Shown here piece after piece: positions 32,312-64,000 of a stretch of DNA of 64,000 bases. A model generated the notes under the pieces. It saw only the letters and a program-made list of their open reading frames with translations. It did not search any database and was not told the origin of the DNA. Source of the stretch: Lentinus brumalis (lineage: Eukaryota > Basidiomycota > Agaricomycetes > Polyporales > Polyporaceae); contig MARA01000031.1 in assembly GCA_001792895.1 (NCBI GenBank), forward strand, positions 456,073-520,072, read 5' to 3'. The translations under genes were made by a program, and so were the position numbers. Numbering within the stretch: the stretch's first letter is position 1; each line of letters opens with the position of its first letter.

Positions 32312-32824
32312 TTAAACAGCACGCAAAGTTGACCCCTCAACCTCGACGGCGGGAAGCTCGCTCACCGGTCGCTCTCGGACAGGTGGAGTAGGGAGGCGAT
32401 GGAAGCGGGCCACGAAAGTACGAACATGAAACTCCACCGCCATTCCCTCGATATGCAACATTCGAGCCCCGTCCATCGACGAGACGGTCGTCCCGACATG
32501 GCGCAATTCCTCCGGGCACCCTGGCCAACGAACGAGGAGGTCGACGAATGCTTGAAGGTACGCCCGGGTCTCCTCCCAGCCTGGGTCCGGGGGTCTCGTC
32601 CAGCAGAATGGTGTAGCCGCCTCGGGGTCAGGGCACAGCGCTAGCCCCGATCGTGACGGGCCCCACACCTCCGAAATGTGTGCCTCGCGCGTCCACCGCT
32701 CCAACTCGGGCCAGGATGACAATTCCACCATGACGGCGTCGAGAGCCAAGAGCTCGCAGCGCCAGTTTGTCTCGTGAGCTTCCCACACGAGATGACAACG
32801 GAGATGTTCTTCATGAGCGGCCAT
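32312..32824 (-). CDS. KDZ-neighbourhood conserved protein, probably a fragment
   Basis: An uninterrupted frame reads MAAHEEHLRCHL, then NWRCELLALDAVMVELSSW, AHISEVWGPSRSG, PFCWTRPPDPGWEETRAYLQ and DLLVRWPGCPEELR, ending VEGSTLRAV. I recognise the pattern (ISEIWG, FCW-x-x-PP-x-GWE, RWPGCP, then a tyrosine/phenylalanine-rich FV-x-x-x-x-RLP) from uncharacterised proteins adjacent to KDZ transposases in mushrooms. Its ATG is only 35 bp from the outer end of element A, and the frame continues open upstream into the terminal repeat. The true 5' part may thus have been cut off or displaced by the insertion. Function unknown. Confidence 0.5.
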   Translation of the reverse strand: MAAHEEHLRCHLVWEAHETNWRCELLALDAVMVELSSWPELERWTREAHISEVWGPSRSGLALCPDPEAATPFCWTRPPDPGWEETRAYLQAFVDLLVRWPGCPEELRHVGTTVSSMDGARMLHIEGMAVEFHVRTFVARFHRLPTPPVRERPVSELPAVEVEGSTLRAV

Positions 32825-32858
32825 GGACTGAGTAACCTCGGTGTCGCCATAGACAGGA

Positions 32859-34884
32859 CACCAGTGGTATCCAGACTTGTAGTACAAACCCCACAGGTAT
32901 GGTACAATGGTTGTGCTGTACGTGGGGGATATTCTGTACAAGACCCTTGTACAAGAGCCATAGGATTGTACAACCAACCACTTGTAGTACAAGTAAGGCT
33001 TGTATTACAAGTGGTCTACTGCAAAGGGCAGCTAAATGCGGACTTGTACAAAGGATTGTAACCCGCATAGAGCAGCCTATACAGAGCTTGTACAAGGCTT
33101 GTAATAGATGTGATCAGCAGATATAGATCTGATAGATCTGGTGATGGGAAATCTAAGTACCAAGATCCTGGCTCTTGTAACCAATTGTAACATGGTCTGG
33201 GGGCTATATGGAGGCAGGCTCTGTAAAAGTGATTGTAACCATCCGTGGGTGTCTATATTCGGACAGAGAAAGCTGGAGCTTGTACATGGGGTCCAGACCT
33301 TGTAATGCAGATTGTAACTGGCCGTAGTGATCCCGATTCGGACAGGAAAAGCTGGAGCTTGTACATGGGGTCCAGACCTTGTAATGCAGATTGTAACTGG
33401 CCGTAGCGATCCCGATTCGGACAGAGAAAGCTGGAGCTTGTACATGGGGTCCAGACCTTGTAATGCAGATTGTAACTGGCCGTAGCGATCCTGATTCGGA
33501 CAGGAAAAGCTGGAGCTTGTACATGGGGTCCAGACCTTGTAATGCAGATTGTAACTGGCCGTAGCGATCCCGATTCGGACAGGAAAAGCTGGAGCTTGTA
33601 CATGGGGTCCAGACCTTGTAATGCAGATTGTAACTGGCCGTAGCGATCCTGATTCGGACAGGAAAAGCTGGAGCTTGTACATGGGGTCCAGACCTTGTAA
33701 TGCAGATTGTAACTGGCCGTAGCGATCCCGATTCGGACAGGAAAAGCTGGAGCTTGTACATGGGGTCCAGACCTTGTAATGCAGATTGTAACTGGCCGTA
33801 GCGATCCCGATTCGGACAGGAAAAGCTGGAGCTTGTACATGGGGTCCAGACCTTGTAATGCAGATTGTAACTGGCCGTAGCGATCCTGATTCGGACAGGA
33901 AAAGCTGGAGCTTGTACATGGGGTCCAGACCTTGTAATGCAGATTGTAACTGGCCGTAGCGATCCCGATTCGGACAGGAAAAGCTGGAGCTTGTACATGG
34001 GGTCCAGACCTTGTAATGCAGATTGTAACTGGCCGTAGTGATCCCGATTCGGACAGAGAAAGCTGGAGCTTGTACATGGGGTCCAGACCTTGTAATGCAG
34101 ATTGTAACTGGCCGTAGTGATCCCGATTCGGACAGGAAAAGCTGGAGCTTGTACATGGGGTCCAGACCTTGTAATGCAGATTGTAACTGGCCGTAGCGAT
34201 CCCGATTCGGACAGAGAAAGCTGGAGCTTGTACATGGGGTCCAGACCTTGTAATGCAGATTGTAACTGGCCGTAGCGATCCCGATTCGGACAGGAAAAGC
34301 TGGAGCTTGTACATGGGGTCCAGACCTTGTAATGCAGATTGTAACCGGCCGTAGCGATCCCGATTCAGACAGGAAAAGCTGGAGCTTGTCATAGCGATCC
34401 CGATTCGGACAGGAAACGCTATCTCAATTATACCATCATCATTGTCAGTATTCCAGAACATCTGCACAGGCTGGGTGCAAAATACAGCCAGAGGTACTGA
34501 GGTTTGGAGAGCCATCACAACTTCCAGCTGCAAAGATCTAATTGTGTGCCAGTTTCTAGGACACTAGTAGCCGCCTCGTTGCTGCGAGCACCATCCTGAT
34601 ATGTTAGGCTATCCGCAAAAATAGTGTTTGAGCCCATAGTGATAGCCCAAGACATGTCATTGATCGTCACTTACTGACTGCTTCAGTTTGCCGCCCATGA
34701 TGCCCTTGGGAGATTACTACTTAGCTTCGCTTTCGGACTCTACAATTGGTTTTTTGCTCAGGCTGAGTCTTAGCAGTTGTGCAACACTGTTGATAGCCGC
34801 ACTTAGGGAATAAGTAATTTGAACAAGTCGGCGCTTTTGGACGACTTATGGACATGCCTTACTGAGCTTACTTATCTGACTGTT
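32859..34884 (+). repeat. Left terminal inverted repeat of element A
   Basis: About 2026 bp, reverse complement of 46847-49584. It consists of an outer 390-bp part dense in TTGTAC/GTACAA, a 79-bp array, and an inner 490-bp unique part ending CTTATCTGACTGTT. Inner mismatches are rare (for example CAAGTC against CAATTC near 34823), so the ends are being kept alike or are young. Confidence 0.9.
33256..34390 (-). repeat. Tandem array of a 79-bp unit, about 14 copies
   Basis: Each unit contains TTGTA three times: TTGTACATGG, 20 bp on TTGTAATGCA, and 12 bp on TTGTAACTGG. Units differ at a few two-state positions (GGAAAAG or GAGAAAG, CCCGAT or CCTGAT, GTAGCG or GTAGTG, AACTGG or AACCGG). Because 79 is not a multiple of three and the unit lacks stops on one strand, long repetitive frames appear; I do not regard them as genes. 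Confidence 0.93.
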
Positions 34885-34941
34885 GCACATTACAGATGAG
34901 AGTCAAGATCATGACGATACACATGTGATCCTATATACAGC

Positions 34942-37900
34942 CTATTCATCCCTATCTGAGCCAGCCTCAGAGTCTGAGGAGTCTGAGGCTTCGACGCCAA
35001 AGGCCACATTCAACTCCTCGCCATCCAACACAGCCATGCCATTGCGACTGCGTGGCCGCACCTTACGAGCGTACTTCTCGTACGGGCGGATCCAAGGTGG
35101 TAGAGGCCCTATGCTGGCAAGCTCGTGCACCCAAAACGATGCGGTGCGGATTGCGAGCTTGTCAAACACAGCTGCCTGCTTCCGGGCATAGATCCGAAGG
35201 CCCCGTTTAAGACGTGCAGGCACGTCTGCCCGACGCCCGGCCTGATTTCGCCACCATCGAGACTTCCACTGGAAGTACTCGATAATACGTCGCATCTCTT
35301 CCAATAGGAGAGCTTGTTCCTCATCCCACCGGTCGGCCCGCGCCTTACACCGCGCCCATTCTGCGCGCATAGTCTGCAGGAACTCCTCATTGTCCGCAGG
35401 ATTCATGCTGTTAGCAGCAGATTCCCGTGCGGACAACGATGTGAGCCAAATCCAGCTTGGCGTGTAGCGACCCTCGCTTGCGATGACTTCATCGTCCTCT
35501 CTCCGAGGCCCGCGGAGATCTGCGTCAAGGAGCGGCCGGTAAGTCGTAGTCCAGGAACCGTCCGGATCGAGAGCCACCATCGCAGTGCGCGCCGCTCGGT
35601 ACCTCTCCACCGCACGTTGCTGCTTGTCTTTGAAGCGCGTATACAAGCCTTGTTGCCTGGTCATGGAGCGCTGGCCAAGGCCGAGGACGTTCATCCTTGA
35701 GAACTCGGATACCGCAGCCAGAACACGACGGATACGCCGAATCTCCGCGAGCGCATCGGATAACTGGGCCAGACGTAGTCGCTGTTCCTTCTTCCGCAAG
35801 CCCGAGAGAGTCTCGTTGGATGCCAAAGTTGCCGGAAGGGCGGATGGGAGCCACAGGCGGACATCTTCAGCTTTGATTGCAGGACGCGGACCCTCTTGAT
35901 CGGAACGGGTGCGACCGGCGGCCGCACGTAGTTCTGCAACCATAGGCATGTGGATGTCCTGGAGCTCGCGCCAGAGATCAATCCGGCGCGTCAAGACGTT
36001 GCGCTTTTCTTGCTGCGCCGCGAGCTCTGACAGACTGCGCCCCGTGCTCGCTCGAAGGCGGAGGGCACGCCTGCCAACCCGTGCCAGTATGAGTCAGCTG
36101 TAGAGTGAGATAAGAGGAAACGCGTACTGCTTCTCTTCGAGCTCCAGTCCAACCTGCAGGAACACTCCTGGAGTTGTGTCGTGGGGAGGCAGCGTCCCGG
36201 CCGCGGCTTCCGCTGCTTCTTCCTGGTTGAGCTGGAGCTTGACCGCGACGAATGTGATGGCTGTAAAGCGAGGTCAACGCAAGCTCGTGGAAGTCCACAG
36301 TCGCTCTCAGCTTACACGAGGTGGGTTCGTCATACGGGTCCGGTTTGGTGGGGTCTGCATTCCATGCGCTGAGCATTTCCTCCCATCCCTTGACAGTATC
36401 CTCTGGGATGTTTGCAGCGAACTCTTCATAGACCTTTCGCTGTTTTACGCGCATCTCTTTGGCTTCCTGCAGCGCACGTAAGAGAACTAAGCCTGATGAT
36501 AGTGTCAATCATGATGTACGCAGGTCAACGCAGATAAGACTTACCGAACGAGATCGTCTTCTGCCAATTCCAGGCGCCCCAGTGGTCGTTGTAGACCTCA
36601 TGCCGCATGCCGAGGCCCATCTCCCGCGTACTGAGTGCCAGAGGGTTCATGTGTGACCAATGAGCTTCAATCCATTCGCCGTAAGTGCGTCCGACGTGCT
36701 TGAGAAAGTTGAGAGACCACCGCGAGTGCGGCTCCCCTCCGTGAACACGGTAGTGCTTCTTCGGAATGGCAAAGCGGATGTCTTCGACCTTTGTTCTATC
36801 TATCCTCATCTCGGGAGGAAAGTTCTCGTCCATCCGCTTGAAGAACTTCTTGCACCATTGGCAGGCGATGTCGTAGGAGAAGAGCAGTGCCGCCAGGACG
36901 AGGCCCAAGACCGTCGAAAAAACGAGGTAGTCCATATTGGCATACCTGAAGATGTTGTATCCTTGGTCAGCCCGAACACTAGGAAGCATAGAAAGCTCAC
37001 ATACCCTTCGCCGAGCTGGAGATCTCCCGCTCCGTTCTTCCGGACAAGGGCATGGCGAGCGCACAAGACAGCGCCGATACCCGAAGCAATGTACCCCTCG
37101 CGCCGAAGATTGGCCTTCAAGATAGCGTTGTGCTCTGCAGAGCAGGTGTTTTCCTACGACGATCAACGTCAGCTGACATCAGACGGGCTTTGCGTGCGTT
37201 GTCATACCTCCTTTTGGCCTTTGCAGGCGGCAACATGCGCTTGATACGCTTTCTCTTCGACGTAATAGGCCCACCCCGGGGCGAGCTCGATGTCCTCGAT
37301 CCCTCGGTCCTTGCACCGAGCGCGGAAGTTGGCATCTATCATGAGATACAGCGTGTACAACCACCTGGTATTCGAATCATGCGTGAGATCGACGCGCTGA
37401 TAGAAAGCAAGAAATCTGAACTCACTTCGACTCTGCCGGCGCATTCTCCCATCCCTCTGGTAGATTTTTGCCAGGGTGCGGGCAGGCTGGACACTCAACA
37501 ACGAGTTCGCCAGGTCCGGTTGCCTGCGCGCCAGCTGGATCGTGCGCTCGCGCGGATCTCTTCAGCATCTGGAGATGACGCCAGATACGAACGGCATGAG
37601 AGAGTTGCTTGTATCGATTCTAGAAAGTATCATTAGGGAACTCCGTGAGGACGACGGATGATCTTTGAAAATGAAGCTCACCGGGACATCGGCACCTCCT
37701 GAGTTGTCGGTGATCCGCTCCAGGGTCTTCCAGTAGTCGTGCAGGTTGGTCTTGGCCTGGAAATTGAGCTCCTGGAACGTCTTGAGGAGCCGAAATGTGA
37801 AGACCGTTTCCGGGCGGTCCATGCTGGCCGGAAACCAGCCCATGCGCATGAGCTGACGCCAATCTGGCGTGAGTTCACCCGAAGCAGGGTCTATGCACTT

Positions 37901-38765
37901 GCAGAACTTGACCCGGTGCGTATAGATTCCCGTAGAGTCGCAGATGACGATCCGGCGGCCGACCAGAGAAGGGTGAGGGCATGTTCCACGGTCATGGCCA
38001 ACTTGCACTTTCAAGCCGAGCTTTTCGAGCGAGCTGTTGCAGAATTTATCTCCATCCCACTCCTGCTCCGTCGCTTGTGAGTTTCCAGAAGCTGAATGAA
38101 TCGGGATTTACTCACTTCGACCCGGTGCAACAGGTTCTCGGCATGCTTCTCAAGTATGCACGACTTGCAGCGGAGAGGGCGTCGGAAGCAGTCGCGACAT
38201 CGTATAGTTGCAGGGCGGACTCCGCATAGATCGCAGAGAACGAAGCCCTCTTCAATAGGCTCCTCGCAGCCTTCAAAGGCGAGCAGTTCATCGAGGAAGT
38301 CTTGCCTGGCGGGGAGCCACTTCCGAAGACGATTCTAAAGAAGACTTCAGTACTCGGATGAGAAAATGTAGAAGAACGGTCACGCACTACTGCACGTAAA
38401 TCAGAACGCGGTCTCTTGGCCTGAGTGGTGGGACTGGTGTCGCCAGTCGATCCCTCGAGGTCTTCAGCTTCCGCGACAGGCAATACAGCCAAGATCGAAT
38501 TCACTGTGTTGTCCGACGAGGCATCTCCTGCATAGGCGGGTGCTTGCTCGCGCGGGTCTGGAATGACCTGCATACGCTCGGTTTTCTGTCGTCTGCGCCC
38601 GGAAGAGCTTTCTGAGAAGTCGACATGTCGCACTGTTATAGGTTGACTCGAGCCAGCCTCGGTGCTACTTCCACTGGGCCCGTCGAAGACTGTATCTATC
38701 ACATCAAACTTGGCCTTCTTGCCTTTGCGTGGACCCGATGTCGCTTTGCGTTTTTCCGACCTCAT
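34942..38765 (-). CDS. KDZ transposase with cysteine-cluster domain (element A)
   Basis: Predicted to cut and rejoin element ends with an RNase-H-fold DDE active site. The N-terminus MRSEKRKATSGPRKGKKAKF is basic. After an intron comes the KDZ-associated cysteine cluster (CxC2-type): CDLCGVRPATIRCRDC then LRCKSCILEKHAEN. Then follow KLGLKVQVGHDRGTCPHP, RIVICDSTGIYTHRVKFCKC and VVECPACPHPGKNLPEGW. The catalytic region follows: LYLMIDANFRARCKDRG (first D), CARHALVRKNGAGDL, MDYLVFSTVLGLV, FSYDIACQWCKKFF (second D) and YGEWIEAHWSHMNPLAL (E). The C-terminal half is a long helical region with many arginines, ending DSSDSEAGSDRDE. I count about nine introns, all GT..AG, and about 1100 residues. No disruption was found, so the element may be autonomous. 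It is transcribed away from the element centre, towards the left repeat, and ends 58 bp from it. Confidence 0.9.
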
Positions 38766-38810
38766 GCTCGATGTAGTTGGGCCGACCGACGACGCAGCCG
38801 GTAGACGTCC

Positions 38811-39683
38811 GTGGCGGCCAGGGAAAGACTAATGATGGCAATAAGCGCGGATCCAACTGCGTACGAGTTTGCGCATCCGTACTGTAATGCATGCTATATC
38901 TCACTCAAATCAGCCTTATATGTTTCACAGCCTGACTACGAGGACGCACATCTTGAAGACTACCATGAGCCTCAGCCTGTCTCAGATCCTGACCCGGTGT
39001 TGTTCATCCTGCATCCTCCAAATGCCGACCTCGCAGCCCGTCCACGACACACGGTGCACTACCCCGTACGGCCCCGACGATGGCGCCTGCACATCGCTCT
39101 GCACGCCTACAAGATGCCGTGCATGAGCTCCCCAAAGACAATTTGCATGGCCAAATCCTGCGAAAACCGCGGTACCAGCCCGCACGCGTCGCCCAGGCCG
39201 ACTGCTCCGCCCGTAACGGTACGCACACGAGTTCAACCTGCCGTAACTGACTTCCATGCTACAGGCGAGCCAGACGATGTTCGTCTCGAGAGAAATGACG
39301 CGGTTTCCGGTGAGTTATGCTCCCTTGTCCATTCGGATTTCAAGCAGTCTGATGTCGAGGCCGAAGAAGGCTCGGAAGTCTTCGTGCCCCCATCTCCGTC
39401 GACGGCGCCCCTCTCCTCTCTCGCCTCGCGCTGTAGCGAGTTCACTGCGTGCGAGGGCCGACCTCGAGCACGATGGCATCCAGCCAGTTCACTGTCCCCC
39501 GAAGCCGGGACGAGCATCGAGTATCAGTTCTGGATTGGACTATTCACCCCAAGTAGTTTCGCATTGCATGTATCAGATCCGACCACAATTTATCTGTCTG
39601 GCATTCATCTTATACATGTCCGCTCTACAATACTTGTGCATCGTGCGCAGCTAGCTGTAGGTGGACTTTGGTGGCAGCGATGA
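38811..39683 (+). CDS. Doubtful open reading frame between two minus-strand genes
   Basis: A 290-codon frame (MAARERLMMAISADP to GGLWWQR) starts 46 bp upstream of the transposase start, on the opposite strand, and overlaps the last codons of the gene at 39625-40427. It has no recognisable domain. It might be a divergently transcribed cargo gene, but the composition is compatible with a chance frame in GC-rich DNA. Confidence 0.25.
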   Translation: MAARERLMMAISADPTAYEFAHPYCNACYISLKSALYVSQPDYEDAHLEDYHEPQPVSDPDPVLFILHPPNADLAARPRHTVHYPVRPRRWRLHIALHAYKMPCMSSPKTICMAKSCENRGTSPHASPRPTAPPVTVRTRVQPAVTDFHATGEPDDVRLERNDAVSGELCSLVHSDFKQSDVEAEEGSEVFVPPSPSTAPLSSLASRCSEFTACEGRPRARWHPASSLSPEAGTSIEYQFWIGLFTPSSFALHVSDPTTIYLSGIHLIHVRSTILVHRAQLAVGGLWWQR

Positions 39684-40427
39684 CATACTGAACGTTAGAG
39701 CTTGCAGTAGTGATACCCCTCCACACCTCATGCAAGGCGTCCGAGGAGAGACCTCGAGCAGGCATGCTCACCAGAACATCCTGTATCCACTCCAACAACT
39801 CCTCACCCCTGTCGACCTGCTCCTCAGCCTCAGACACCCAGGATTCCATCTCTTCCCCCAGTAACGCACGCTCGTATCGAACACAGAGCTGTTTCCAGAA
39901 CGCGTTGAGATTCTCGCGATATCCCCAGTAGTTCAGTGCCTCGTTGAGCCTGTCGAGGACTCGAATGAGTTCATATTCGGCGGTCGCAGGGATAGGAATA
40001 GGCCAAGCTAGGGCATTCGTCCTGTCGCACCTCAACCAATTGCATCATGACTGACTGCACTTTGACTCACCGGAACGAAGGGTCTATACCATCGCCCTCG
40101 AATCCAACATGCTCCTGCGCGGCGGGCGCGGTTGCGTCTGAGCCAGAATCCTCGTGGGTCTCGGACGGCCCCGCTTGAAGTAGTTGCTTGTGCTTTTGTC
40201 CAACCGGCCTGCTTCCCTTGCCCGCCCTACTCAATTTGCGCAGGGCCTTCACCGAGATCCCGAGCCTTTCTGCTCTGGCGGGAGGTTAGTGTTAGACACA
40301 AGTGCAGCTTGGGAGCAAGGACTTACTCCGACTTCTTCTTCAGGTAGTGCCGGTGATTCCTCTCCTGCTTCAGAAGCTTGCTCCGCAGAGTCTCCTCGTC
40401 GGTTATGTCTTGGACAGCCCGAGGCAT
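39625..40427 (-). CDS. Small uncharacterised cargo protein of element A
   Basis: Three exons join in frame. Exon 1 is MPRAVQDITDEETLRSKLL to LKKKSE. Exon 2 is ERLGISVKALRKLSRAGKG to GIDPSFR. Exon 3 is TNALAWPIPIPATAEYELI, then LNEALNYWGYRENLNAFWK, EEMESWVSEAEEQVDRGEEL and HLQLAAHDAQVL. The product is about 210 residues, with a basic helical N-terminus and an acidic helical C-terminus, and could be a coiled-coil or DNA-associated accessory protein. I recognise no family. It lies between the transposase and the dioxygenase on the same strand as both. The three genes may form a co-oriented module, but each has its own intergenic region. Confidence 0.6.
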
Positions 40428-41010
40428 GATATGTAGACAAGGGATGCACAAGTAGGAGTGACTGCACGTTGGGCTGAGTAGAGGATCAAGGTGAGCATGG
40501 AGGCGCTAGTAGTCCGCGGCAATTGAAGAGGGTTGGCCGCGTCGCTCCGCAGGACTCTATTATGCAACATACCTCATGCGTACATCGTCAGTAACACAGG
40601 AGATCCTCTGAAATGTGTATAGCCAAATTTCAGACGACCTTACATCCCATGTTGACTACATGTTCTAATACACAACATGACTCTACGATACTGTGTCTTA
40701 CTTTCAGCGACAGCGTCTTAACCTTCGAGTAAGACGCCGTCGCATGTCCTCGCATGGATTATGCCATCGTCACCGGCTCACATGTCTATGAAACCTCTCG
40801 GCGATATATGTTCGTACGACCAACTCGACTACAACAGTAAACTGGTAAGACGCATATCAGTCTATAAGACACCGTAGCCATGTTACTCACCGAATCTTAC
40901 TTTTGGCGACAGCGTCTTACCCTCCCAGTAAGACACATGTTTGCATGCCATCAAAGTCTTGTCCGACGACGAACTCAATTACGAAAGTAGGTAGTACGAC
41001 GGTACACATA
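40428..41010. other. Intergenic with two diverged direct repeats rich in TAAGAC/GTCTTA
   Basis: TCTTACTTT followed by GCGACAGCGTCTTA occurs near 40696 and 40895, and CATATCAGTCTA follows each copy (near 40853 and 41008). GTAAGAC/GTCTTAC recurs at least six times in 300 bp. This lies between the promoter of the small gene and the end of the dioxygenase gene. Confidence 0.55.
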
Positions 41011-43227
41011 TCAGTCTACAAATTCGTCCCATTTGCTAAGTAAAGACATGCCCAACCTCCATCGCTCCTGGCCGGTAATGTCGAACTTGTTACCCGCAGC
41101 CTCGAAGTTCTTCTGACTTTGAAAGCCGCACGCCGCCCAGCGAAGGAGTCCACCTGCGGTATACTGCGTGATTGACAGGCGAGTTTCGCCTGCTTGTGTC
41201 AGGATAGTATTTGAATGGGGAACGGTCGCGGAGGGTAGAAAGATCGTGGCGCCGGGTGGGAACTCGATCACCTTACGCAAAGACCACAGGACCAGATGTC
41301 CGCTCTGCTTAGGGTTGTACCTCCCAAGCGCAGTGACCGCGCACAACCCCCATGGAACGTTCTGCTGGTCAACATGGCGATGAGTGACGGTGCTCGGGCC
41401 AAGGTTGAACGTTGCTGCGGCAAAGACATTGCCCTTGAAGGGCGGCTTGAGCTCAGGATCGCGCTCGCACAATTCGCTGAGCACGTCGCCGTAGGAATCG
41501 TAGAGCCTGGGTGCCCAGACCTGGAGCGCGCCTTCGAGCTTGTAAATGACCCGTCCATTGCAACAAACTCGCCACTCACCACTGGCAAAGTTCGCGATGC
41601 GGCGAATGGCCGTGTTGTCCAGAGCGTCTTGGATCACAAGGCGGTTGTGCGCGGAATGGGCGAAGTTCGACGGAGACTTCGGGCCGGTGAGCATGCGAAA
41701 GGTAGGCCACGAGCACGCGCACTCACCGGCTGTCCGCCTCCATAGGTGATTCCAGTAGTGACCGACCAGTAATCGCCGCGGCGGTGGGAGAAGTCGCAGT
41801 GTGCAGAGTGGTAGTTCCGCCGCATGTCCTCAAGCGCCCCGGTCGCTTCCTCAGTCACCGTGCTCCAAGACGCGTCGTTGGGTTGACCGGCAAGCACGAC
41901 GATGATTGTGCCATCAGGAGCGAGGAGGACACGACATATCCTTTGGATCAAGAGGTTGGGCGACGCATTCGACGACTCGAGTATGTACGAAACACTCACT
42001 TCCCATCCCACTCCTCATAGTCGAAACCCAGAAGATCCACCAGTTGTTGCGCCGTCCACGGCGTCCGATCGTCTTCGGTCAACGAGAGCACCGGTCCTGT
42101 GAAGCCTTGCCCGACCACAGGTACATAGTCGAGGCCAACTGCCGGTGCTGCGATGTTCTGCACGGACTCGGTGCGTGATGCTTGAGCCCCTTGACGATGC
42201 TTTGCCGCGGAGGATTTAAGAGGTCGCCTCGTGAGGGGCGTGCGGATGCTCAGATCTGGGGGCACTGCGGAAGCACCACTGTCCACAGATGCGGCAGGCT
42301 GGGCGACGCGCTTCCGCTGGCGGCGGGCCTTGTTGCGCCCTCGCTGATGAAACTGCTCCTTGGTAGCGCCGTCGTCCTGAGTACCGGACGAGCGCAAGGG
42401 TGGTTGGGGATAGGGTGCCAGTGCATTGCGCGATGCAGCAGCGGACGTGCTAGCCTTGGCTCCACGCTGCCTCGGCTTGGAGCGCGTCTCTGTGGCGAGC
42501 GCGTGCGAAGGCTGCGGGTCCGCGGAGCTCAGTGAGCCTGACAGGCATGGCGCAGAAGCAGTAACCGCTGGAAGGGGGTCGGGGTGCACTGCGGGTTGTG
42601 CCTGAGCGGTGGCAGGCATCTCTAACAACGCCCGGCTTGAAGGCGATGGTGGTTGCGCCACAGGCGGTGGGCCCGACCCATGGGGGTCGTCTTGTGCGAA
42701 TATTGCAGCGAGGAGATCACGTCCAAAGTCGAACGTAGCAGGGGCGTGCAGGGGAGGGCCGAGTAGGGCTCCCCATGGGGAGAAGATGCTCTTCTGGCGT
42801 GTCTGAAATCGAGAGGCGGCGACAGTTATCAGGTACTTGTTGCGCGGAGCCTGTGAATAAGTACTCACAACGCGAAAGGAGTCCAGATATTCGGGCCCTA
42901 AAGCGCAATAAAGCATGATCAGTACACAGTGCTGAGCTATGCCAAGCACCCAGTCGACCACCTATTGCGCGCAACGTCTGGGATCCAACAGTCGAGTCCA
43001 CGCTCGGCGCACGCAGAGAGGTCGAAGGGGATGTAATAGAGAGCACTCACCAGACATACAGGCGTAAAGTGAGTTGAACCGGGTGGCGGACGTGGTGGTG
43101 GTTGTATACTAGTACACGGCGCGACAGGCGCGTTTTGAGATATGAACGTCCGGTCACGGGCACGGGATCTGTGACCACACAGACGCCGTACACCGGTAGG
43201 CTGCCGCATATTGCTCTGAAGCAGCAA
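41011..43227 (-). CDS. TET/JBP-type 2-oxoglutarate Fe(II) dioxygenase (element A)
   Basis: Fungal TET/JBP enzymes oxidise 5-methylcytosine or thymine in DNA with 2-oxoglutarate and oxygen. The start MLLQSNMRQPTGVRR (43227; an alternative ATG is at 43209) leads to STHFTPVCL. After a 170-bp intron come GPEYLDSFRV and SIFSPWGALLG, then a long proline- and serine-rich linker. The catalytic part begins LDYVPVVGQGF and TAQQLVDLLGFDYEEWDGK. It continues with CRVLLAPDGTIIVVLAGQP and TGITYGGGQP, then STVTHRHVDQQNVPWG, whose H-V-D gives two iron ligands. IFLPSATVPHSN supplies the distal histidine and ETRLSITQYTAGGLLRW the 2-oxoglutarate-binding arginine. All active-site residues are present. About 620 residues, four or five introns, no frameshift seen. 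Whether it modifies element or host DNA is inference. Confidence 0.85.
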
Positions 43228-43905
43228 GGTCCAGATCTAGACACGCGAAGTGTGCTTGAAGGAGTAGAGTAGAGAAGAGTGAATTGGGCGCCAGGTACAG
43301 ATACATACAGGCACTATTAGCTACTCTTATCGAGCCCATACATCCGTGACGCAGGAGACCGGGAACTCATGGTTAGATGTCTTGTGTATCCGAGTACAAG
43401 CCAACCCGGGAGCGGTCGTAGCGGTGGTCGCGGTGGGGATGGGAGCGACATCCGTGCTTTGAGAACTGGCTCAGCACGTCGCGCGGGAGCTAGAGAGGAG
43501 CCGGAGAATAGGAGGCAGTCCCGTCCGATCAATAGCGATGCAAGATCGGTCCTCCTTAGGCACGTGTGAACGGGCACTGTCCGGAGGCTGGCGATTAAGT
43601 AGCTGGACGCAAGGCTGAAGCAAGAACGACATGTTAGAGGAACGAATGCCAGAGGAAGAGCGATAATAGTTACCAGACCCGAGAACGTGGAAGGACAGTT
43701 GCAGCAGGAAGGCTGCACAGCGGGAGAGGTGGTGGTGCCCGATCATCCTCTCGGACTGGCTCGGTGCAGATCGGGTGCGCCGCCGCTGGGTATTGTAACA
43801 CAATGCGCCCACGATTTTTTGCAGCCTCTGGCATCCGACATCTGTCCTCACCTGCATCGTTTCAGTCTCCCCTCTGTACACGGTCACCAAACTCGTACCT
43901 TCGCT
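43228..43905. promoter_or_regulatory. Shared upstream region of the dioxygenase (-) and companion (+) genes
   Basis: The two genes diverge from this 678-bp region, so it must hold both promoters. I see no clear TATA box for either gene and no coding frame. Confidence 0.45.
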
Positions 43906-46724
43906 ATGGGCCGCCCTTGGACAGCTGAACTCGAACTCGCAATGCTTGAAGAGCGGTGGCCAGGGTTCACTGCGGCGCGTACCCAGGACCTCACGACGAC
44001 GTTCTTGACGAGCGTGTATCAAGACTACTTCTCCGCGCTATACCCCGAAGTCGTAGTACCAGAGGGTGCAGACGAGAAGTCGATCTTCTTCACCACTCTG
44101 AAGCCGGGGCCCGATGGCGAGGAGCAGCAGATCTCTGTACATGGGCGCAAAAAGGTCAGTCTCGCTGTGGTTCGTAGAGCATTCGCCTGACTCACCTGGT
44201 TCGAATACTTAGCAAATCTATTGGTGGTTCTGGAATCGCGCGAACAGTCTTGACCTGAAGACGCGAAACAAGAGCAAGAAAAAGGACAGCGGCCTCGACT
44301 TCAACGCAGACCCGCAGAAGGCTGTCAAGAGACAAGCCTATCAGGCTTACGTCGACATCTACGGCGAGCGCGTCCTACCAATCATCAAGCCAGAGTTCGA
44401 CGAGTACTTGAAGAAGTTCGTTGCAGCGGAGGAGGGCGAGAAGCCGAAGGGATGGTTGGCATTCATGGGGGAGCGGGCAAAAGTGATGTTGGAGAATGAG
44501 AGCGAGGAGGTGAAGGCGGAGGTCGAAGCGGCGCGCATCAAAGGTCCCAAGGACGACGGCTTAGACATGTTCACCGACCCCGCGCCTGGCGTAACGGTGC
44601 AGGATCAACAGAAGCGGGCAAGGATCATCCAGGAGTGAGTTCAACGATCATGCAGACTCGAATTCCCTCTTACCTGTCTCTAGCCGCATCGATGCGTTAC
44701 CCGAGAAGTTCGCAAAGCTCGCGAAGAACCTTGAGCAACAGCTCGGCTGGAAGGTGTCGGTCAGTGCTGGAGGGCCACGTCCAGACACCGGCGAGTTCGT
44801 GTCTTACTCGTGAGCACAACAGTCTCTGCGCCTGAAATGTCTTGACGGCTGACAATACGTGTTAGCTATCATTCAGGACATACAGCGAATCTGGGGCTCA
44901 CGTTGACGGATGTGTGTACCAAATGGCCAGCTTTCAAAGCAGACTTCAACAACTTCGTGGTCAATTGCTATCGTGAGTAATATGATACAGCTGTTCGAGC
45001 TAGTGGGCGATGACGCTAATCCGAAACTGTTACATGCAGCACCGGACGCAGCAAAGAAATTGCATGCCGCTTACCTGGGTGGCGAAGCCGATCCTGACTC
45101 GAGCACCACCCCATCCGAGTCGTCACGGTCCACACCCGCTCCTCCACCTCTTCCCAATCCCCAGCCAACGTTCTCCGTCCAACTTCCCCCTACGACGCCC
45201 TCAGATCCCCCTTCTTCTGCGTCGAGACAGTCGACTGAGTCTGCCGCAGGTCCGTCGAAGAATACCGCAGCCACCGCGCCGGAATCAAGCCCTACCAGCG
45301 AGTCGGAGGGTGGTGCGCCCAATACAACCACGTCGTCGAGCACGTCGTCCCGCAGTATATCAGGAGCGATGGATTGGGAGAAGCAGAGGTTGGCTACGAT
45401 GAAGAGGAACCACGAGAGGATGGTGGCGGAGGGGTTGATCTCGGCCGCGCAGGCTCTGCAAAAGCCAGCGAAGAAACCTCGCGCGCCCCGTGCACCGAAG
45501 ACTACGGCTTCTATTCCTCCCACGTCTGTCACGACACGCACACGCTCTGCCGCCGCCGCCGCCGCCGCCGCCTCTGCTGCCACACCCACTCAGACCGAGG
45601 CTGTCACCCAAGCCTTCGTGCCAGAAGACTCATCTGCTACGCCTGGCGAGTTGAGCAATGCGGCGGCCTCAGGACTCGCAAGTTCCGTACACAGCATACA
45701 TCCCACGCACGGCACTTCATCTGGTGCTGAGCAGCCTCCCACATCTGTGTCGCCGACTTCGACAGCGACAACCTCTCCCCTGCCAAGCGCAACTCCTTCG
45801 GCGGCTTCAGGTGCAGCTTTGCCCGCCCCGGCGGATGCTCAGGACGTTCAAGAAGTCGAGACGCAATCCACCGCAGCCTCCTCCGCCTCCGGTCAGGTCC
45901 ATGTACAAGACCCCCTTGCAGGCTCTTCCGCTTCGCTCCAGCCTGCGTCCATCTCAGACACCATCGTCCTCCCCGGTATAGCGACCTCATCCTCTGTCGT
46001 CACCCCTCTGGACGGCTCTGCTCTCCTTCCATCGACAGACACCGAGAACGTGTTGATTGTGCTTGATCAGGAGGCCCCGGACTGGGTCTTCAGCGCGGTC
46101 GAGTTCTTCGAGTACCATCTCGAGGCTGGAGGGAAGGGCTGGCACCGTCTGGTGCATAGTTGGCAGAAGTTTGAGATGCATATGGGGTACCCGGAGTCTC
46201 GGGTGAGTACTATCGATCTTTCATGCTCTGTAGCGGCCATGGTCATGACTCAAGCAATTCTACAGAAGAAGCAGTTTCACCTCCCGACCGCTCTCCGTCC
46301 AGATGAGATTGCTCAATGGATGAAGGAGGGTCGCGATTACGAGAAGCTCCCAGAGCTCGTCGACCATGTTGCCTTTTCTGCGCAATGGAAGACATGGTGG
46401 GCCTCCCTGCAACCGGCTACCCGACGCGTCGATGGCTCCCCAACTTTGCTCAACCGCATCGCGCCTACAGATAAGAGCGAGTGGGAGATTATCTGGCGCG
46501 GAGGGCCATGTGGGCTCTTCCTCGTCATCATGGGGCTTGCATGGTGGCTCTACGCTGCTTCTGAGAGTGATAGCAGCCTCCAAGAGGTTCAGGATGCTAT
46601 AGATGACGTGCACTGGGCCCTCTGTACCGCTATGGAGGCTCACGGGCTGAATGCGAAGCGTGCTGCCTCGGAGAACTCGGACGTCGAGAGTTGCACTTCC
46701 GTGAAGCGCGCTCGCATTGATTGA
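43906..46724 (+). CDS. Large KDZ-companion protein (element A)
   Basis: Six exons join in frame from ATG 43906. The order is MGRPWTAELELAMLEER, then HGRKKQIYWWFWNRANSLD (a W-x-x-NR motif shared with the element B companion, which has THWFSNNAP), then a helical region (GERAKVMLENESEE). Then come RIDALPEKFAKLAKNLEQQ, LGWKVSVSAGGPRPDTGEF, SGHTANLGLTLTD and NCYPPDAAKKLHAAYLGG. A 300-residue serine/threonine/alanine/proline-rich linker follows. The C-terminal block is PDWVFSAVEFFEYHLEAGGK, FSAQWKTWWASLQPATR and EWEIIWRGGPCGLFLVIMG. I recognise the W-x-x-WW-x-x-LQP and RGG-x-x-GLFLV signature from conserved uncharacterised proteins in KDZ neighbourhoods of mushrooms. About 840 residues, nuclear-type C-terminus (VKRARID). 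A role in element-end binding or target choice is possible but unproven. Confidence 0.8.
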
Positions 46725-46846
46725 GTTCTCCTTCGCTGTCACGGTCATTTTCCTGTACAGTACAATGATGCCTGTACTTATGTCGAACTATCAATACTCA
46801 GTACTTGTGTCTGAGTCTCCGACAACGGTTCATCATAATTCTCATG

Positions 46847-49584
46847 AACAGTCAGATAAGTAAGCTCAGTAAGGCATGTCCATAAGTCGTCCAAAAGCGC
46901 CGAATTGTTCAAATTACTTATTCCCTAAGTGCGGCTATCAACAGTGTTGTACAACTGCTAAGACTCAGCCTGAGCAAAAAACCAATTGTAGAGTCCGAAA
47001 GCGAAGCTAAGTAGTAATCTCCCAAGGGCATCATGGGCGGCAAACTGAAGCAGTCAGTAAGTGACGATCAATGACATGTCTTGGGCTATCACTATGGGCT
47101 CAAACACTATTTTTGCGGATAGCCTAACATATCAGGATGGTGCTCGCAGCAACGAGGCGGCTACTAGTGTCCTAGAAACTGGCACACAATTAGATCTTTG
47201 CAGCTGGAAGTTGTGATGGCTCTCCAAACCTCAGTACCTCTGGCTGTATTTTGCACCCAGCCTGTGCAGATGTTCTGGAATACTGACAATGATGATGGTA
47301 TAATTGAGATAGCGTTTCCTGTCCGAATCGGGATCGCTATGACAAGCTCCAGCTTTTCCTGTCTGAATCGGGATCGCTACGGCCGGTTACAATCTGCATT
47401 ACAAGGTCTGGACCCCATGTACAAGCTCCAGCTTTTCCTGTCCGAATCAGGATCGCTACGGCCAGTTACAATCTGCATTACAAGGTCTGGACCCCATGTA
47501 CAAGCTCCAGCTTTTCCTGTCCGAATCGGGATCGCTACGGCCGGTTACAATCTGCATTACAAGGTCTGGACCCCATGTACAAGCTCCAGCTTTTCCTGTC
47601 CGAATCGGGATCGCTACGGCCGGTTACAATCTGCATTACAAGGTCTGGACCCCATGTACAAGCTCCAGCTTTCTCTGTCCGAATTGGGATCGCTACGGCC
47701 GGTTACAATCTGCATTACAAGGTCTGGACCCCATGTACAAGCTCCAGCTTTCTCTGTCCGAATCGGGATCACTACGGCCGGTTACAATCTGCATTACAAG
47801 GTCTGGACCCCATGTACAAGCTCCAGCTTTCTCTGTCCGAATCGGGATCGCTACGGCCAGTTACAATCTGCATTACAAGGTCTGGACCCCATGTACAAGC
47901 TCCAGCTTTTCCTGTCCGAATCAGGATCGCTACGGCCAGTTACAATCTGCATTACAAGGTCTGGACCCCATGTACAAGCTCCAGCTTTTCCTGTCCGAAT
48001 CGGGATCGCTACGGCCAGTTACAATCTGCATTACAAGGTCTGGACCCCATGTACAAGCTCCAGCTTTCTCTGTCCGAATTGGTATCGCTACGGCCGGTTA
48101 CAATCTGCATTACAAGGTCTGGACCCCATGTACAAGCTCCAGCTTTCTCTGTCCGAATCGGGATCACTACGGCCGGTTACAATCTGCATTACAAGGTCTG
48201 GACCCCATGTACAAGCTCCAGCTTTCTCTGTCCGAATCGGGATCGCTACGGCCAGTTACAATCTGCATTACAAGGTCTGGACCCCATGTACAAGCTCCAG
48301 CTTTCTCTGTCCGAATCGGGATCGCTACGGCCGGTTACAATCTGCATTACAAGGTCTGGACCCCATGTACAAGCTCCAGCTTTCTCTGTCCGAATCGGGA
48401 TCACTACGGCCAGTTACAATCTGCATTACAAGGTCTGGACCCCATGTACAAGCTCCAGCTTTTCCTGTCCGAATCGGGATCGCTACGGCCAGTTACAATC
48501 TGCATTACAAGGTCTGGACCCCATGTACAAGCTCCAGCTTTTCCTGTCCGAATCAGGATCGCTACGGCCAGTTACAATCTGCATTACAAGGTCTGGACCC
48601 CATGTACAAGCTCCAGCTTTTCCTGTCCGAATCGGGATCGCTACGGCCAGTTACAATCTGCATTACAAGGTCTGGACCCCATGTACAAGCTCCAGCTTTT
48701 CCTGTCCGAATCGGGATCACTACGGCCAGTTACAATCTGCATTACAAGGTCTGGACCCCATGTACAAGCTCCAGCTTTTCCTGTCCGAATCAGGATCGCT
48801 ACGGCCAGTTACAATCTGCATTACAAGGTCTGGACCCCATGTACAAGCTCCAGCTTTTCCTGTCCGAATCGGGATCGCTACGGCCAGTTACAATCTGCAT
48901 TACAAGGTCTGGACCCCATGTACAAGCTCCAGCTTTTCCTGTCCGAATCAGGATCGCTACGGCCAGTTACAATCTGCATTACAAGGTCTGGACCCCATGT
49001 ACAAGCTCCAGCTTTCTCTGTCCGAATCGGGATCGCTACGGCCAGTTACAATCTGCATTACAAGGTCTGGACCCCATGTACAAGCTCCAGCTTTTCCTGT
49101 CCGAATCGGGATCACTACGGCCAGTTACAATCTGCATTACAAGGTCTGGACCCCATGTACAAGCTCCAGCTTTCTCTGTCCGAATATAGACACCCACGGA
49201 TGGTTACAATCACTTTTACAGAGCCTGCCTCCATATAGCCCCCAGACCATGTTACAATTGGTTACAAGAGCCAGGATCTTGGTACTTAGATTTCCCATCA
49301 CCAGATCTATCAGATCTATATCTGCTGATCACATCTATTACAAGCCTTGTACAAGCTCTGTATAGGCTGCTCTATGCGGGTTACAATCCTTTGTACAAGT
49401 CCGCATTTAGCTGCCCTTTGCAGTAGACCACTTGTAATACAAGCCTTACTTGTACTACAAGTGGTTGGTTGTACAATCCTATGGCTCTTGTACAAGGGTC
49501 TTGTACAGAATATCCCCCACGTACAGCACAACCATTGTACCATACCTGTGGGGGTTTGTACTACAAGTCTGGATACCACTGGTG
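46847..49584 (-). repeat. Right terminal inverted repeat of element A
   Basis: About 2738 bp, the inverted counterpart of 32859-34884. The 712-bp excess equals nine 79-bp units. Confidence 0.9.
47342..49188 (+). repeat. Tandem array of the 79-bp unit, about 23 copies
   Basis: Same unit as at 33256-34390, inverted. It has more AACCGG-type variant units (read GGCCGGTTACAA on this strand) than the left array. The order of variant units differs from the left, so the two arrays have expanded or contracted independently. Three overlapping repetitive frames of about 580-660 codons run through it and are a by-product of the stop-free 79-bp unit. Confidence 0.93.
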
Positions 49585-49601
49585 CCACGTCGAGGCAGGT
49601 G

Positions 49602-49745
49602 AGGTCGGTGTCGAGGAAGGCGAGGTCCATGTCAAGGAAGGCGAGGTTCACATCAAAGAAGGTGAAGTTCACATTGAGGAAGCCGAGGTCGACATCGAGG
49701 ATGGTGAGTTGCAGGAGTCGTCAATGGGCGAGGTCGACGAAGGCG
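49602..49745 (+). repeat. 21-bp repeats encoding a heptad (V-x-V/I-x-E-x-E)
   Basis: About six imperfect copies of a unit like GTCCATGTCAAGGAAGGCGAG follow the right end of element A by 18 bp. On the plus strand they read EGEVHVK EGEVHIK EGEVHIE. They may be the relic of a coding minisatellite; no complete gene can be drawn. Confidence 0.6.
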
Positions 49746-50190
49746 AGGCGCAAGGATTGTGATTGCGAACGGCAGCTATAGCGGAGGTCACGGACATGGA
49801 CCCCAAGCATATTGAAAATTTCCTCTCATCCATCTTGCTTGTACCAATGTATATCACAGCCGTATTTGAAGTTCACATGCGTCCATAGCCTTGCCCACTG
49901 TGCCCGCTGTGCTGCCCGCCGTGCCCATATGGAACTTTGCGTCTAATGCCCCATCCAGCTGACTGGCTGAAACCATTTGCGATATGGTAAGTTATGATAC
50001 TATGACACCCTTGAGTGTCGTATCTATCATAGCTGTGGTACTGGCACGTTGAGATTTGGCAAAGCCAGGCATGCAAATAATGCCCGTGCTGCCCGGGGTG
50101 CCCGTCTGCGACATTTGTGCCAAAGGTTTGCATACTGTTATTGAAACAATACATGACAGAAATAACCGAAAAGAGTACCCGTCCCTCTCC
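49746..50190. other. Junction between element A and element B
   Basis: Contains the first GTGCCC-type motifs of element B (49890-49935 and 50080-50110) and an inverted pair of TATGATACTATGACACCC and TGTCGTATCTATCATA near 49995-50035. The left end of element B must lie here, but I could not place it to the base. Confidence 0.4.
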
Positions 50191-53149
50191 TCACACCTTG
50201 CGTTTACCAGCAGTGGTGCGGTTCGTTCGGCGGAGCTTTGCAGGTGGCAGTGACTCGGGGTCCTGGTCGGCGCTATGTTCCCCCTTGCGCTTGCGCAACT
50301 CCCGCGGTTCCGGCTGTGTGCCTCGCGAGCGAGTCTGTCGAGCCACAGCGCCAGGTAGATTCTCCGCATTGGCCCACTGTTGCCGGCCTCCGCGTGTGTT
50401 CGCCTCCACCACCTGCCCTGCAAGCCCCTCCAAGATTGACTGTGGCTCAGGGTCGATAGAGCTAACAGCCATCTCCCGTTCCACCTGAGCAGCCGAGGAT
50501 GTGGAGGACGAGGCTGTGGGGATGCTTTGGCTTGGAGTGACGGCTGGGCCGTCGTCCTTGCCCTTGCCCTTGCCCGTGCCCGTGCCCGTGCCCGTGCCCG
50601 TGCCCGTGCCCGATGCTATGCCCATGCCCGATGCTGTGCCCATGGCCAATGCGGTCCCTGCGGTCGTGCCCGTGGTGCCCGGGTGAACGGACTTGATGCA
50701 GGCAGGCAGAAGTGTCTCCACAATGTGCGAGAACCTTGCCTCACTGTTGGCCAGGTAGTCAGGGCCACCATATGGCACGGACTCACCCTCCTCACATGAG
50801 TTAGCAATGTGGGCGTCGCGAAGAGCTAGACCCATGGCTAGTGCCCATTGCTGAACTTCACTCATGGAGGACGACCCGCACAGCGTGTGAGTGCTGAGCC
50901 ATGTCATGACAGCGTGCCACTTCTCGCTGTCTGAATGTATTGCAGGTGGCATGCCGAAGTCCGACGAGTCCCAGGATGCCCAACTACCTGGCCCAACATC
51001 CTTGAACGTTGACCGGTGGCGGAACTGCAGGTGGCATGGTCAGATTTGCATTGAAGGCAGCAGCGGCAAACTCACCATGTGGACCCACGATCTCAGCACA
51101 GCCTGATAGTCAGGCTCGGTGCTCAATGCCCATAGGAACGGGAAAAGCCGTTCAGGCTTCTGCCCGACCCAGGTGGGGGGCTTGGCCTGCGCCTTTACAA
51201 CCAAACGGGGATCTGGGAGGGTGGCACCAGCTCCGCGTGTCTTGCCGGCTGACCTGGACCCATGATTGGGCGCCGGAACAGGAGGTGCACCATCCTCCTC
51301 ACCAGAGACATTGATGTCGATCTCCTCTTCCCCAGGGGAGTCTTCATCCGACCCAAGATCAGGCGACGATTCGCCCGGAGACTCATCGCTAGAGGTCGCA
51401 TCCGGCTCCTTCTCCAACTCCGAGCGGGATGCCCGCCGTGCCCGCTCTGCCCGCTTGCGCTGCCCGGTGCCCTTGCCCTTGCCCTTGCCCGTGCCCTTGC
51501 CCTTGCCCTCCTCGCTCTTCTTGGCATTCGCAGCCATATTCTTCTGAGGACGAGGAGCAGGCTGACCGGACTTCTTCTGAGGTCGAGGAGCGGGCCGACC
51601 AGACTTCTTCTTCGGGGCAGGACGGGCAGCAGGTTCTTCATCAGAGTCAGACGAGGCTGCACTGCCCGCAGAGCCCTTGGGAGCAAGGTCCAGGACGGCC
51701 TGAAGGTCCCAAGCACCTTTGGGCGGAGCTACAACACAGCGTACACGTTTCTCATGCTGCTCCTTCTCCGCGTTCTTGGCCACTGTGCCGTTGTACTTCG
51801 CCGTATGACGAGAGCTGCCGTCCCACCAGTGAGTGAAGCGGAAACGAAGAGTGGGGTCATCTTCTTCCTGTAGCTCGAGAACCCTCTCCCACCACTGGCA
51901 CATGGGCACGACATTCATGCGAGTGGGCTCCTTGACCGTGATGCCGCCTGAGAAGAGCCCTTCACGGAAGTAGAGCTCTGGGTGAGCTGCAATCGTCGCC
52001 CAAGCAACACTTGCGTTCTTGAAGCCACAGGCAAGAGCTAATAAGTCCGAGTGAGTGACCGGGCAAGTGCGAAGACGAAGAGGCACCTACACCAGTGAAG
52101 CGAAACAAATGCACGCATGATGCTCTCCTTCTCAACCTGGCGACGGAACTCATCCATGGACGGCAGGATGGGGGTGCCGTCGGGGAAGAGTTTGAACTCA
52201 TATTTTGGCTTGAGCTCCGTCAGGTTCAGGCCGGGCTCCTTGCGGAGGTCATGACGTTCCGGGAACAAAGAGAGCTCAGCAAACCGGGCGAAGAGGTTGT
52301 AGTAGTCCGTCTTCCAGTTGGGAAATGCTGTTGTGAACTTTGGACACTCCGGCTTCACTGAGTTCCACTGCATGCTGATGTCGTATCTAGTGCCTGCCCG
52401 GTCAGTGCCCGTCGTGCCCGTAAGGGTGCCCGTAGCACTCACCGGCCCCAGTTCAGCTTTGATAGCTTGTCACGGTAGTAGAATGTGAGCTCGCTAACTG
52501 CACCAGCTTGGGTGTATAGTAGGACAATGAAGGACTCGACCCAATCAGCAAGTCGTCGCTCGGCAATGCTGTATAGGTGCAAGGTGTCAGTGCAGGCAAA
52601 ATTCTCGCAGGAATAAACACGCACAGCGATTGCAACTCTGGGTCAGCACCATCCTCAGTCCATTCATCTGCCTGCCTCTCAAAACCAGACTTTTCCTCCG
52701 GCGCCAGCTCTCCCCACATCTGTGACCGGGCAGTGTTGAGTGCGGCAATGAAGACCTTGCCCTGCTCTTCGATGATATCGGCCACCCGCTCCATGATGTC
52801 CTTCTCACGCACAATGTAGAACACTTCACGTGCGGTCCAGACCGTGCGAAGTGAGCGAGGGAGCCGGGAGTCCTTGGTGGGGGCGTTGTTGGAGAACCAG
52901 TGTGTAACCTTCTGTGGGCAGATAAGCATGTACACATGGAACAGGTGGTTTCATAAAATGTACCGTGCGAATGAACTTGTATGCATACGGGTTGTTGTCG
53001 TCGATGCCACGCCCGCGGACAATAGTAAGCACCAAGGCCGCTTTGGCCTCCTGCTTCTCGAGGCGAGACTTTGTCGCCCAGTCTTCAAGGGCAGCTCGGA
53101 GGAGCTCAATTTCATCATGAGTTAGGGAGATGTCGGTGGGCGCGGGCAT
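50191..53149 (-). CDS. Large KDZ-companion protein (element B)
   Basis: I join six exons from ATG 53149. They read MPAPTDISLTHDEIELLRA, then KVTHWFSNNAPTKDSRLP (the W-F-x-N motif shared with the element A companion), EEQGKVFIAALNTARSQMW and RLADWVESFIVLLYTQAGA. Then come LFARFAELSLFPERHDLRKE, KESIMRAFVSLHW, ALACGFKNASVAWATIAAHP and MCQWWERVLELQEEDDPTLR. Long basic and acidic low-complexity linkers follow, including AAARPAPKKKSG-like repeats. A C-terminal conserved part has SDSEKWHAVMTWLSTHTLCG. A run of Gly-Thr and then Gly-Lys dipeptides is encoded by the CCCGTG/CCCTTG hexamer at 50553-50620. The intron at 52396-52442 consists largely of the same hexamer. The product is about 880 residues with a nuclear-type tail (NRTTAGKRKV). 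It is a distant relative of the gene at 43906. Function unknown. Confidence 0.75.
50553..50640 (+). repeat. CCCGTG hexamer run inside a coding exon
   Basis: Seven or so tandem copies of TGCCCG and variants (TGCCCT, TGCCCA) lie in the companion gene, in frame, encoding Gly-Thr and Gly-Lys repeats on the minus strand. A second run lies at 51455-51515 in the same gene. Confidence 0.9.
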
Positions 53150-53606
53150 ACTGAGTCGACAGCAGTCAATGGACGATAGCAGGCAGTGGACAATGACAGT
53201 CAGTTGGCACCGAGCTGAGGGGTGGGCACAGTCAGACCGGGCCAGCACGGTAGTCCAGGACATCATGTGAGCGCGACTTGGCATGATAAAATCACCTAAT
53301 CGATCATCATGTTGGGTCTCGGCCTGGGTGATCTTTGTGCAGGACATGATTGCACTAACATCTAAAGAGGAACAAGTCATATCTGTAGGCCCCAAAACGG
53401 CTCCCTTTGAATGCGCACAAAGTATGCCACGTACTTAGAGCACTATTCGGTCTTTCTGCGGAGGCAATGCCTATTGTTATAGGCTGAAAGAGTGACAGTG
53501 TGCGATATCGAACTACGCTCTTTGTGCGGCGCGGTAAAGCACAGCCACACATGCCGGGGCAACGTTTAAAAAGAGTGGTTGCAATATCTTTCCCCCCAAA
53601 AAAACT
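53150..53606. promoter_or_regulatory. Shared upstream region of the companion (-) and dioxygenase (+) genes of element B
   Basis: The two genes diverge from this 457-bp region, the same arrangement as the dioxygenase-companion pair in element A. AT-rich sequence with a run of A (near 53596) lies just before the ATG at 53607; no clear TATA box. Confidence 0.45.
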
Positions 53607-54921: not shown

Positions 54922-54971
54922 CTTCTCTTTCCCTTGCTCTATTTGCCGTTCCTTGACTTCGCTACCCTCCC

Positions 54972-59431: not shown

Positions 59432-59559
59432 ACCATGTAACTGCACAGATTCCTATACAAGATTGCAGAATGTTCACCAAAATATCCAGCTCACCACCAT
59501 GTAGACCTGTAGCATACAGTGCCCACATGGGCAGGCCGGAAATCAGTGCCCAAAGCGGC

Positions 59560-59835
59560 TGCGGGCACGGGCACGGGCACACAGTAGTGACCGAGGTGGG
59601 CACAGGCACGGGCACGGGCACGGCACGGGCACGGAGGGCATAAACATGAACATGGAGGGCACGGACATGGGCACAGGGGGCACAAACACGGGCACGGGGG
59701 GCACAGACACGGGCACGGGGGGCACAGACACGGGCACGGACAGAGACATGCCCACGCACATGGACACGGACACGGGCACGGACACGGGCATGGACACGGG
59801 CACGGACACGGACCCGGACGCGGTCACGCACACGG
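59560..59835 (+). repeat. GGGCACG / GACACG repeat cluster downstream of the transposase
   Basis: Dozens of copies of GGCACG and GACACG hexamers occupy the 3' side of the transposase gene, between it and the convergent gene ending at 59908. This is the densest stretch of the motif in the window. Confidence 0.9.
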
Positions 59836-59907
59836 ATACAGGGAGGAGGAATATTGAGCGAGCAGCGAGGAGAAGTCCTCAAAGATACAATATATAGAGA
59901 TATACTA

Positions 59908-63970: not shown

Positions 63971-64000
63971 GATGCGGGCATGAGAAAAAGCAGCGGCAGG

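Follow-up and report, generated by a model that had tools for sequence, protein, structure and literature searches.

The 64,000-nucleotide window analysed here (contig MARA01000031.1, positions 456,073 to 520,072, of the Lentinus brumalis assembly GCA_001792895.1) holds a 16.7-kb unit at 32859–49584, in which a transposase gene of the KDZ superfamily and three further gene models lie between long inverted repeats. The termini are exact (CACCAG...CTGGTG), and each repeat contains a tandem array of a 79-bp unit (Table 1). Copies were searched for in the genome (53.4 Mb, 136 contigs, here given C numbers; the window is C62:456073-520072).

Table 1. Features of the element and its surroundings (window positions)
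Feature	Position	Strand	Remarks
End of open frame interrupted by insertion 1	32312..32858	-	continues on C125; 710 amino acids with flanks joined
Target-site duplication GACAGGA, insertion 1, left side	32852..32858	.	partner beside C125 copy B, not at right end of window
Left inverted repeat	32859..34884	+	2026 bp, arm alignment
79-bp tandem array, left	33257..34389	+	Tandem Repeats Finder, 14.3 copies (14 units), 97% matches
KDZ transposase	34942..38765	-	8-exon spliced script model, 1138 amino acids, CxC2 cluster and full KDZ domain
Possible small gene	39625..40427	-	233 amino acids, exons joined by hand
Putative TET/JBP-like 2-oxoglutarate/Fe(II) (2OG-Fe(II)) dioxygenase	41011..42916	-	script model, exons 42000-42916, 41727-41940, 41011-41676; 598 amino acids; further short intron likely
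Gene 3	43906..46724	+	5-exon script model, 856 amino acids; further intron near 3' part likely
Right inverted repeat	46847..49584	-	2738 bp, arm alignment
79-bp tandem array, right	47342..49185	-	Tandem Repeats Finder, 23.3 copies (23 units), 97% matches
Target-site duplication CCACGTC, insertion 2, right side	49585..49591	.	partner beside C125 copy A; empty site on C115, C16
Repeated KDZ+TET block entered by insertion 2	49585..64000	+	runs to or past window end
TET in repeated block	54394-54918		AG-type, CcTET E 1.6e-15
CxC2 cluster in repeated block	55507-56904
KDZ core in repeated block	57463-57885

The inverted arms aligned in two pairs: 32886–34389 with 48053–49556 (1504 nt, 99%) and 33215–34884 with 46847–48516 (1670 nt, 97%). 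The outermost common sequence, CACCAGTGGTATCCAGACTT, starts exactly at 32859 and, on the opposite strand, at 49584. The same end was found at six further places in the genome (two on C125, two on C59, one each on C118 and C77), and all six of these readable ends start with CACCAGTGGTATCCAGACTT, like both window ends. The 7 bp flanking the unit in the window are mismatched, with GACAGGA on the left and CCACGTC on the right. CCACGTC was found at the left end of one C125 copy (copy A) and GACAGGA at the right end of the other (copy B). GTGGGTC flanks the left end on C77 and the right end on C118, and ATATGCT lies on both sides of the C59 copy. In total, four insertions were found, with a 7-bp target duplication at each. 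The uninterrupted site of insertion 2 is present on C115 (99.8%) and C16 (99.4%), each with a single CCACGTC. The marks of a DNA transposon were thus found: defined ends, four 7-bp pairs and two empty copies of one site.

The transposase model matched the KDZ Pfam domain PF18758 over its full length (1–217 of 217, E 1.9e-56, 191.6 bits with a cut-off of 26.6). The cysteine cluster preceding the catalytic domain was a complete CxC2 (1–107 of 107, E 2.7e-33, 114.8 bits with a cut-off of 27); CxC1 also scored over its cut-off of 26.9, at 31.4 bits, below CxC2. In Pfam, the possible small gene had no match over cut-off and gene 3 had none. The 16.7-kb unit is a genuine KDZ DNA transposon.

Much of the original prediction, which had described a mobile unit with inverted repeats of 2026 and 2738 bp, was borne out. 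The arm alignments gave these repeats, tandem arrays were detected in both inverted ends, and the transposase was intact in its spliced model. Aligning the ends fixed the termini at exactly 32859 and 49584. The proposed genome search for the left repeat and for empty sites returned near-identical copies and the two empty sites of insertion 2. The completeness and possible mobility of the copy had been argued from its intact frames and the high similarity of its two ends; open frames were seen in the script models, and very close copies in the genome. Two outcomes had been named as contrary to the prediction, namely ends lying elsewhere in other copies and an assembly-level inversion. Neither was found: the readable ends of other copies stop at the same bases, and the same end recurs on other contigs. 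An inverted repeat made by the assembly was ruled out by this end on C77, C118 and C125 and by both ends on C59.

The claim of a complete single unit stood for the exact ends and the KDZ content, but not for one clean insertion. As the partner of GACAGGA lies beside C125 copy B and that of CCACGTC beside C125 copy A, two insertions are run together in the window copy: its left flank belongs to insertion 1 and its right flank to insertion 2, the two copies having the same orientation and lying 18.4 kb from each other. The fitting order is the left flank of the window, insertion 1, the 18.4-kb segment placed on C125, then insertion 2 and the right flank of the window. C125 starts and finishes inside the element. 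The window was identical to C125 copy B over the 11261 bp compared, while copies A and B differed in their overlap by 7 mismatches and 9 gap openings. The left array has 14 units in the window and 17 in C125 copy A, and the right array has 23 units in both the window and C125 copy B. Because the array counts match copy B and differ from copy A, most or all of the interior of the window copy probably comes from insertion 1. For insertion 2, no right half was seen elsewhere among the genome contigs.

Assemblers commonly collapse long near-identical repeats, and a collapse is more likely to have made the join than recombination in some nuclei. Under the latter, which we regard as unlikely, the junction would be real: in some nuclei, 18.4 kb together with one element would have been lost through homologous recombination of the two same-orientation copies, with C125 as either the arrangement without the deletion or a circle released by excision. 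The predicted product is exactly the window arrangement, and both the contig ends of C125 within the element and the identity of the window to copy B are as this would have it; an assembler collapse, however, yields identical contigs. The differences between copies A and B speak against a simple circle unless they are errors, and a simple circle was rejected on this ground. It is hardly credible that the window holds one insertion whose target duplication decayed or never formed. The window's own flanks do differ, but C125 holds a perfect 7-bp match for each of them, and two empty copies exist for one site; with these partners, a single insertion without duplication was rejected.

Sequence nearly identical to the left repeat and interior was present on C125 (twice, both copies cut by the contig ends), C77 (cut by the contig end), C118 (cut by the contig start) and C59. 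Over the 12.3-kb interior, the C77 copy differed from the window by 20 mismatches and 23 gap openings and the C118 copy by 24 mismatches and 17 gap openings. C125 copy A had 6 mismatches in 8.0 kb and copy B none in 8.9 kb; near the contig end, the KDZ domain match of copy B was in more pieces than that of the window copy. The C77 and C118 copies, which share GTGGGTC, are taken to be the halves of a single insertion; in the 14.6 kb where they overlap they differ by 14 mismatches and 33 gap openings, perhaps through sequencing error. The C59 copy (C59:210483-225569) is a mosaic. In 500-bp bins with gaps excluded, its identity to the window element was 98.0–100% from about 2 to 9.5 kb, then 81–93% to 12 kb and 55–73% to 14.5 kb on the gene-3 side, which suggests recombination between subfamilies. 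The transposon has been amplified recently and was probably active in the recent past. Separately, matches to a diverged relative (~65–78%) on C79:1-33300 are mirrored around 16611, so that the start of this contig has the look of a 33-kb palindrome, which may be genuine or a fold-back of the assembly. On C1, a sister KDZ family shows inverted ends of ~316 bp (94%), CA...TG termini and a 7-bp duplication (TTCTGCG); the portions of its ends that were read, 284 bp on the left and 780 bp on the right, showed no tandem array.

The 79-bp arrays contain and multiply a TTGTA motif that is concentrated in the ends of the element. In the left repeat, 21 TTGTA lie within the terminal 398 bp (mean of 200 shuffles 1.6, maximum 6), and CTTGTA was counted 100 times in the repeats as against 6 times in the interior. 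The number of array units varies among copies from 5 to 17 on the left and from 11 to 23 on the right. The transposase may bind the TTGTA-rich ends, and it would cut at CACCAG/CTGGTG and insert with a 7-bp stagger. The arrays may serve as extra binding or regulatory sites that expand and contract through unequal exchange. It is quite possible, however, that repeat expansion produced the long ends as an inactive by-product, with the terminal few hundred bases sufficing for movement and the arrays having no role: the terminal 398 bp alone already have their 21 motifs, the short ends of the sister family show no array in the portions read, and the number of units differs among copies. Against this, every end of the array-bearing family that was read has an array, with the same TTGTA motif.

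The original prediction had mentioned neither the mismatched flanks nor the second KDZ+TET block at the right border, and it had missed the dioxygenase. The HxD...H...R residues of this enzyme (H101, D103, H154, R166) were invariant in 16 of 16 aligned sequences; these are common to other 2OG-Fe(II) enzymes too. Three TET types (AG, PE and PU) are described in PMC12730594, the AG type with Gly/Ser at +3 and Asp at +9 from the aspartate of HxD, the PE type with HxE and the PU type as a sequence group of Pucciniomycete enzymes. The dioxygenase of the element differs from this description of the AG type in having Asn106 and Cys112 at these positions (invariant in 16/16) and has HVD in place of HxE. 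Two of the 16 aligned sequences, the window's among them, matched Tet_JBP at E 0.01, and two matched the general 2OG-FeII_Oxy_3. The best fold matches of the predicted, low-confidence model were NgTET and the CcTET of Coprinopsis cinerea (PDB 4lt5 and 7vpn). Searches of PDB sequences with the dioxygenase exon and with its alignment, up to E 10, returned no TET chain. The alignment (A1) took 15 of the 30 loci L022-L051, trimmed to stop-free stretches; L022-L027, L030-L032, L036, L040, L044-L046 and L050 were omitted as having stops or repeating other rows or the window family. A further alignment (A3) kept 8 of 9 stretches, with L068 dropped for a stop. The element possibly includes a diverged TET/JBP-like dioxygenase, a candidate DNA-demethylating enzyme, which might oxidise methylated bases on the element and so resist silencing.

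Tallied exon by exon, KDZ elements are abundant in the genome, with 159 matches; the unusual TET-like exon gave 54, of which 24 have no locus assigned. Collapsed by hand, these were at least 92 KDZ places among the matches listed, 43 TET-like places (from 54 matches), 29 Tet_JBP places and 20 gene-3 places (from 29 matches), counts that include near-identical copies and are not independent. The C-terminal region of gene 3 recurs elsewhere in the genome; of 20 such places, 14 have a TET-like match no more than 12 kb away.

Among the closest published systems are the TET-positive Kyakuja of Agaricomycetes, which carry a KDZ transposase and a TET/JBP gene inside (Kojima 2025, PMC12730594); the two Laccaria families are reported there to have 7-bp duplications, CA...TG termini and no terminal inverted repeats. 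The 7-bp duplication and CA...TG were found in both the window family and the C1 sister family, and the window element would share the TET/JBP gene as well. Unlike the two Laccaria families, it has inverted repeats of 2.0 and 2.7 kb that contain 79-bp arrays. The element is Kyakuja-like in its termini and in the length of its duplications. Zisupton also belongs to the KDZ superfamily and has terminal inverted repeats, but with 8-bp duplications (PMC12730594) rather than the 7 bp at our four sites. KDZ1, KDZ2 and KDZ3 of Cryptococcus neoformans, of demonstrated mobility, likewise combine a KDZ transposase, a cysteine cluster and terminal inverted repeats; as published (PMC12810828), they measure ~11, 9.2 and 10 kb, with repeats of 241, 139 and 169 bp, 8-bp (4–8 bp) duplications and a CxC1 cluster, whereas the window element has 16.7 kb, kilobase repeats, 7-bp duplications and a transposase scoring best with CxC2. 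The published KDZ inverted repeats found in these sources were 139–241 bp (PMC12810828) or absent, in Laccaria Kyakuja (PMC12730594). For Marasmius oreades, one genome paper lists KDZ and Plavaka groups and refers to their inverted-repeat motifs (PMC8290104), and a later paper mentions a transposable element library with elements up to ~42 kb (PMC9674265). Compared with this maximum, the word 'giant' in the original prediction was overstated; 16.7 kb is large relative to the Cryptococcus elements. The array-bearing kilobase ends and the unusual dioxygenase are new features within the known KDZ kind.

Overall, it is very probable that this is a Kyakuja-like, cut-and-paste DNA transposon of the KDZ superfamily with four insertion sites found, and that the window joins two of its insertions; the ways in which the ends, the arrays and the TET-like enzyme would act are inference. 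Direct observations were the exact ends, the 7-bp duplications, the two empty copies of one site, the near-identical copies, the open models of the window copy and the unequal arrays. Several points weigh against this reading. The gene models were made by a simple script. The dioxygenase is in broken pieces in the C118, C125 A and C59 copies, and gene 3 in the C77, C118 and C59 copies; either sequencing error or decay may be the cause, and the window copy may be the sole one with all frames open. The Tet_JBP score of 18.9 bits is below the cut-off of 34.9, the fold model is poor (pLDDT 58), and Foldseek TM-scores are low (0.20–0.40 in the first 17 rows, query-normalised 0.28–0.40), with 11–19% sequence identity to the structure matches in the top six VIA rows. 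The 12.3-kb interior also has a slight excess of TTGTA (20; shuffle mean 10.5, maximum 19). The joined frame at insertion 1 is weak evidence alone, its 710 amino acids falling between the 90th and 95th percentiles, with 400 random points giving a median of 202, a 90th percentile of 368 and a 95th of 736. A wider proposal is more doubtful and offered tentatively: an array-bearing KDZ lineage with expandable blocks of transposase-binding motifs at both ends and a TET/JBP-like DNA dioxygenase of a fourth transposon-borne class not yet described (HxD-x2-N-x5-C), to which dozens of genes or fragments in the genome would belong, roughly half of them next to a KDZ transposase.

As for the surroundings, the joined flanks of insertion 1 matched C2 across the junction (75%, query 4–212 of 276), and this relative of the interrupted frame lies ~5 kb from a KDZ match. 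The right border of the element falls within the second KDZ+TET block, whose TET carries Gly and Asp where PMC12730594 places them and is of the AG type accordingly. This block (window 49585-64000 and C125:10321-16900) comprises ~21 kb or more and has several copies at 99–100%; its right part recurs at 99–100% on C59, C65, C64 and C115, and its ends were not found in the genome. Tandem repeats of ~98 bp lie at its homology edge on C125. Within the 18.4-kb segment, an insertion resembling a retroelement occupies C125:18794-25028; its direct terminal repeats of 368 bp are 99.7% identical, and one end of the insertion has matches at many positions in the genome.

Mushrooms commonly carry KDZ transposons, which have been little studied. 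A 'complete element' on one contig can combine the flanks of two insertions, which calls for caution. This family offers an empty site as well as exact ends and target duplications, which makes its transposition directly testable. The ends of KDZ elements can reach kilobases through a motif-bearing array, and the cargo dioxygenase may broaden the enzymes by which transposons withstand DNA methylation.
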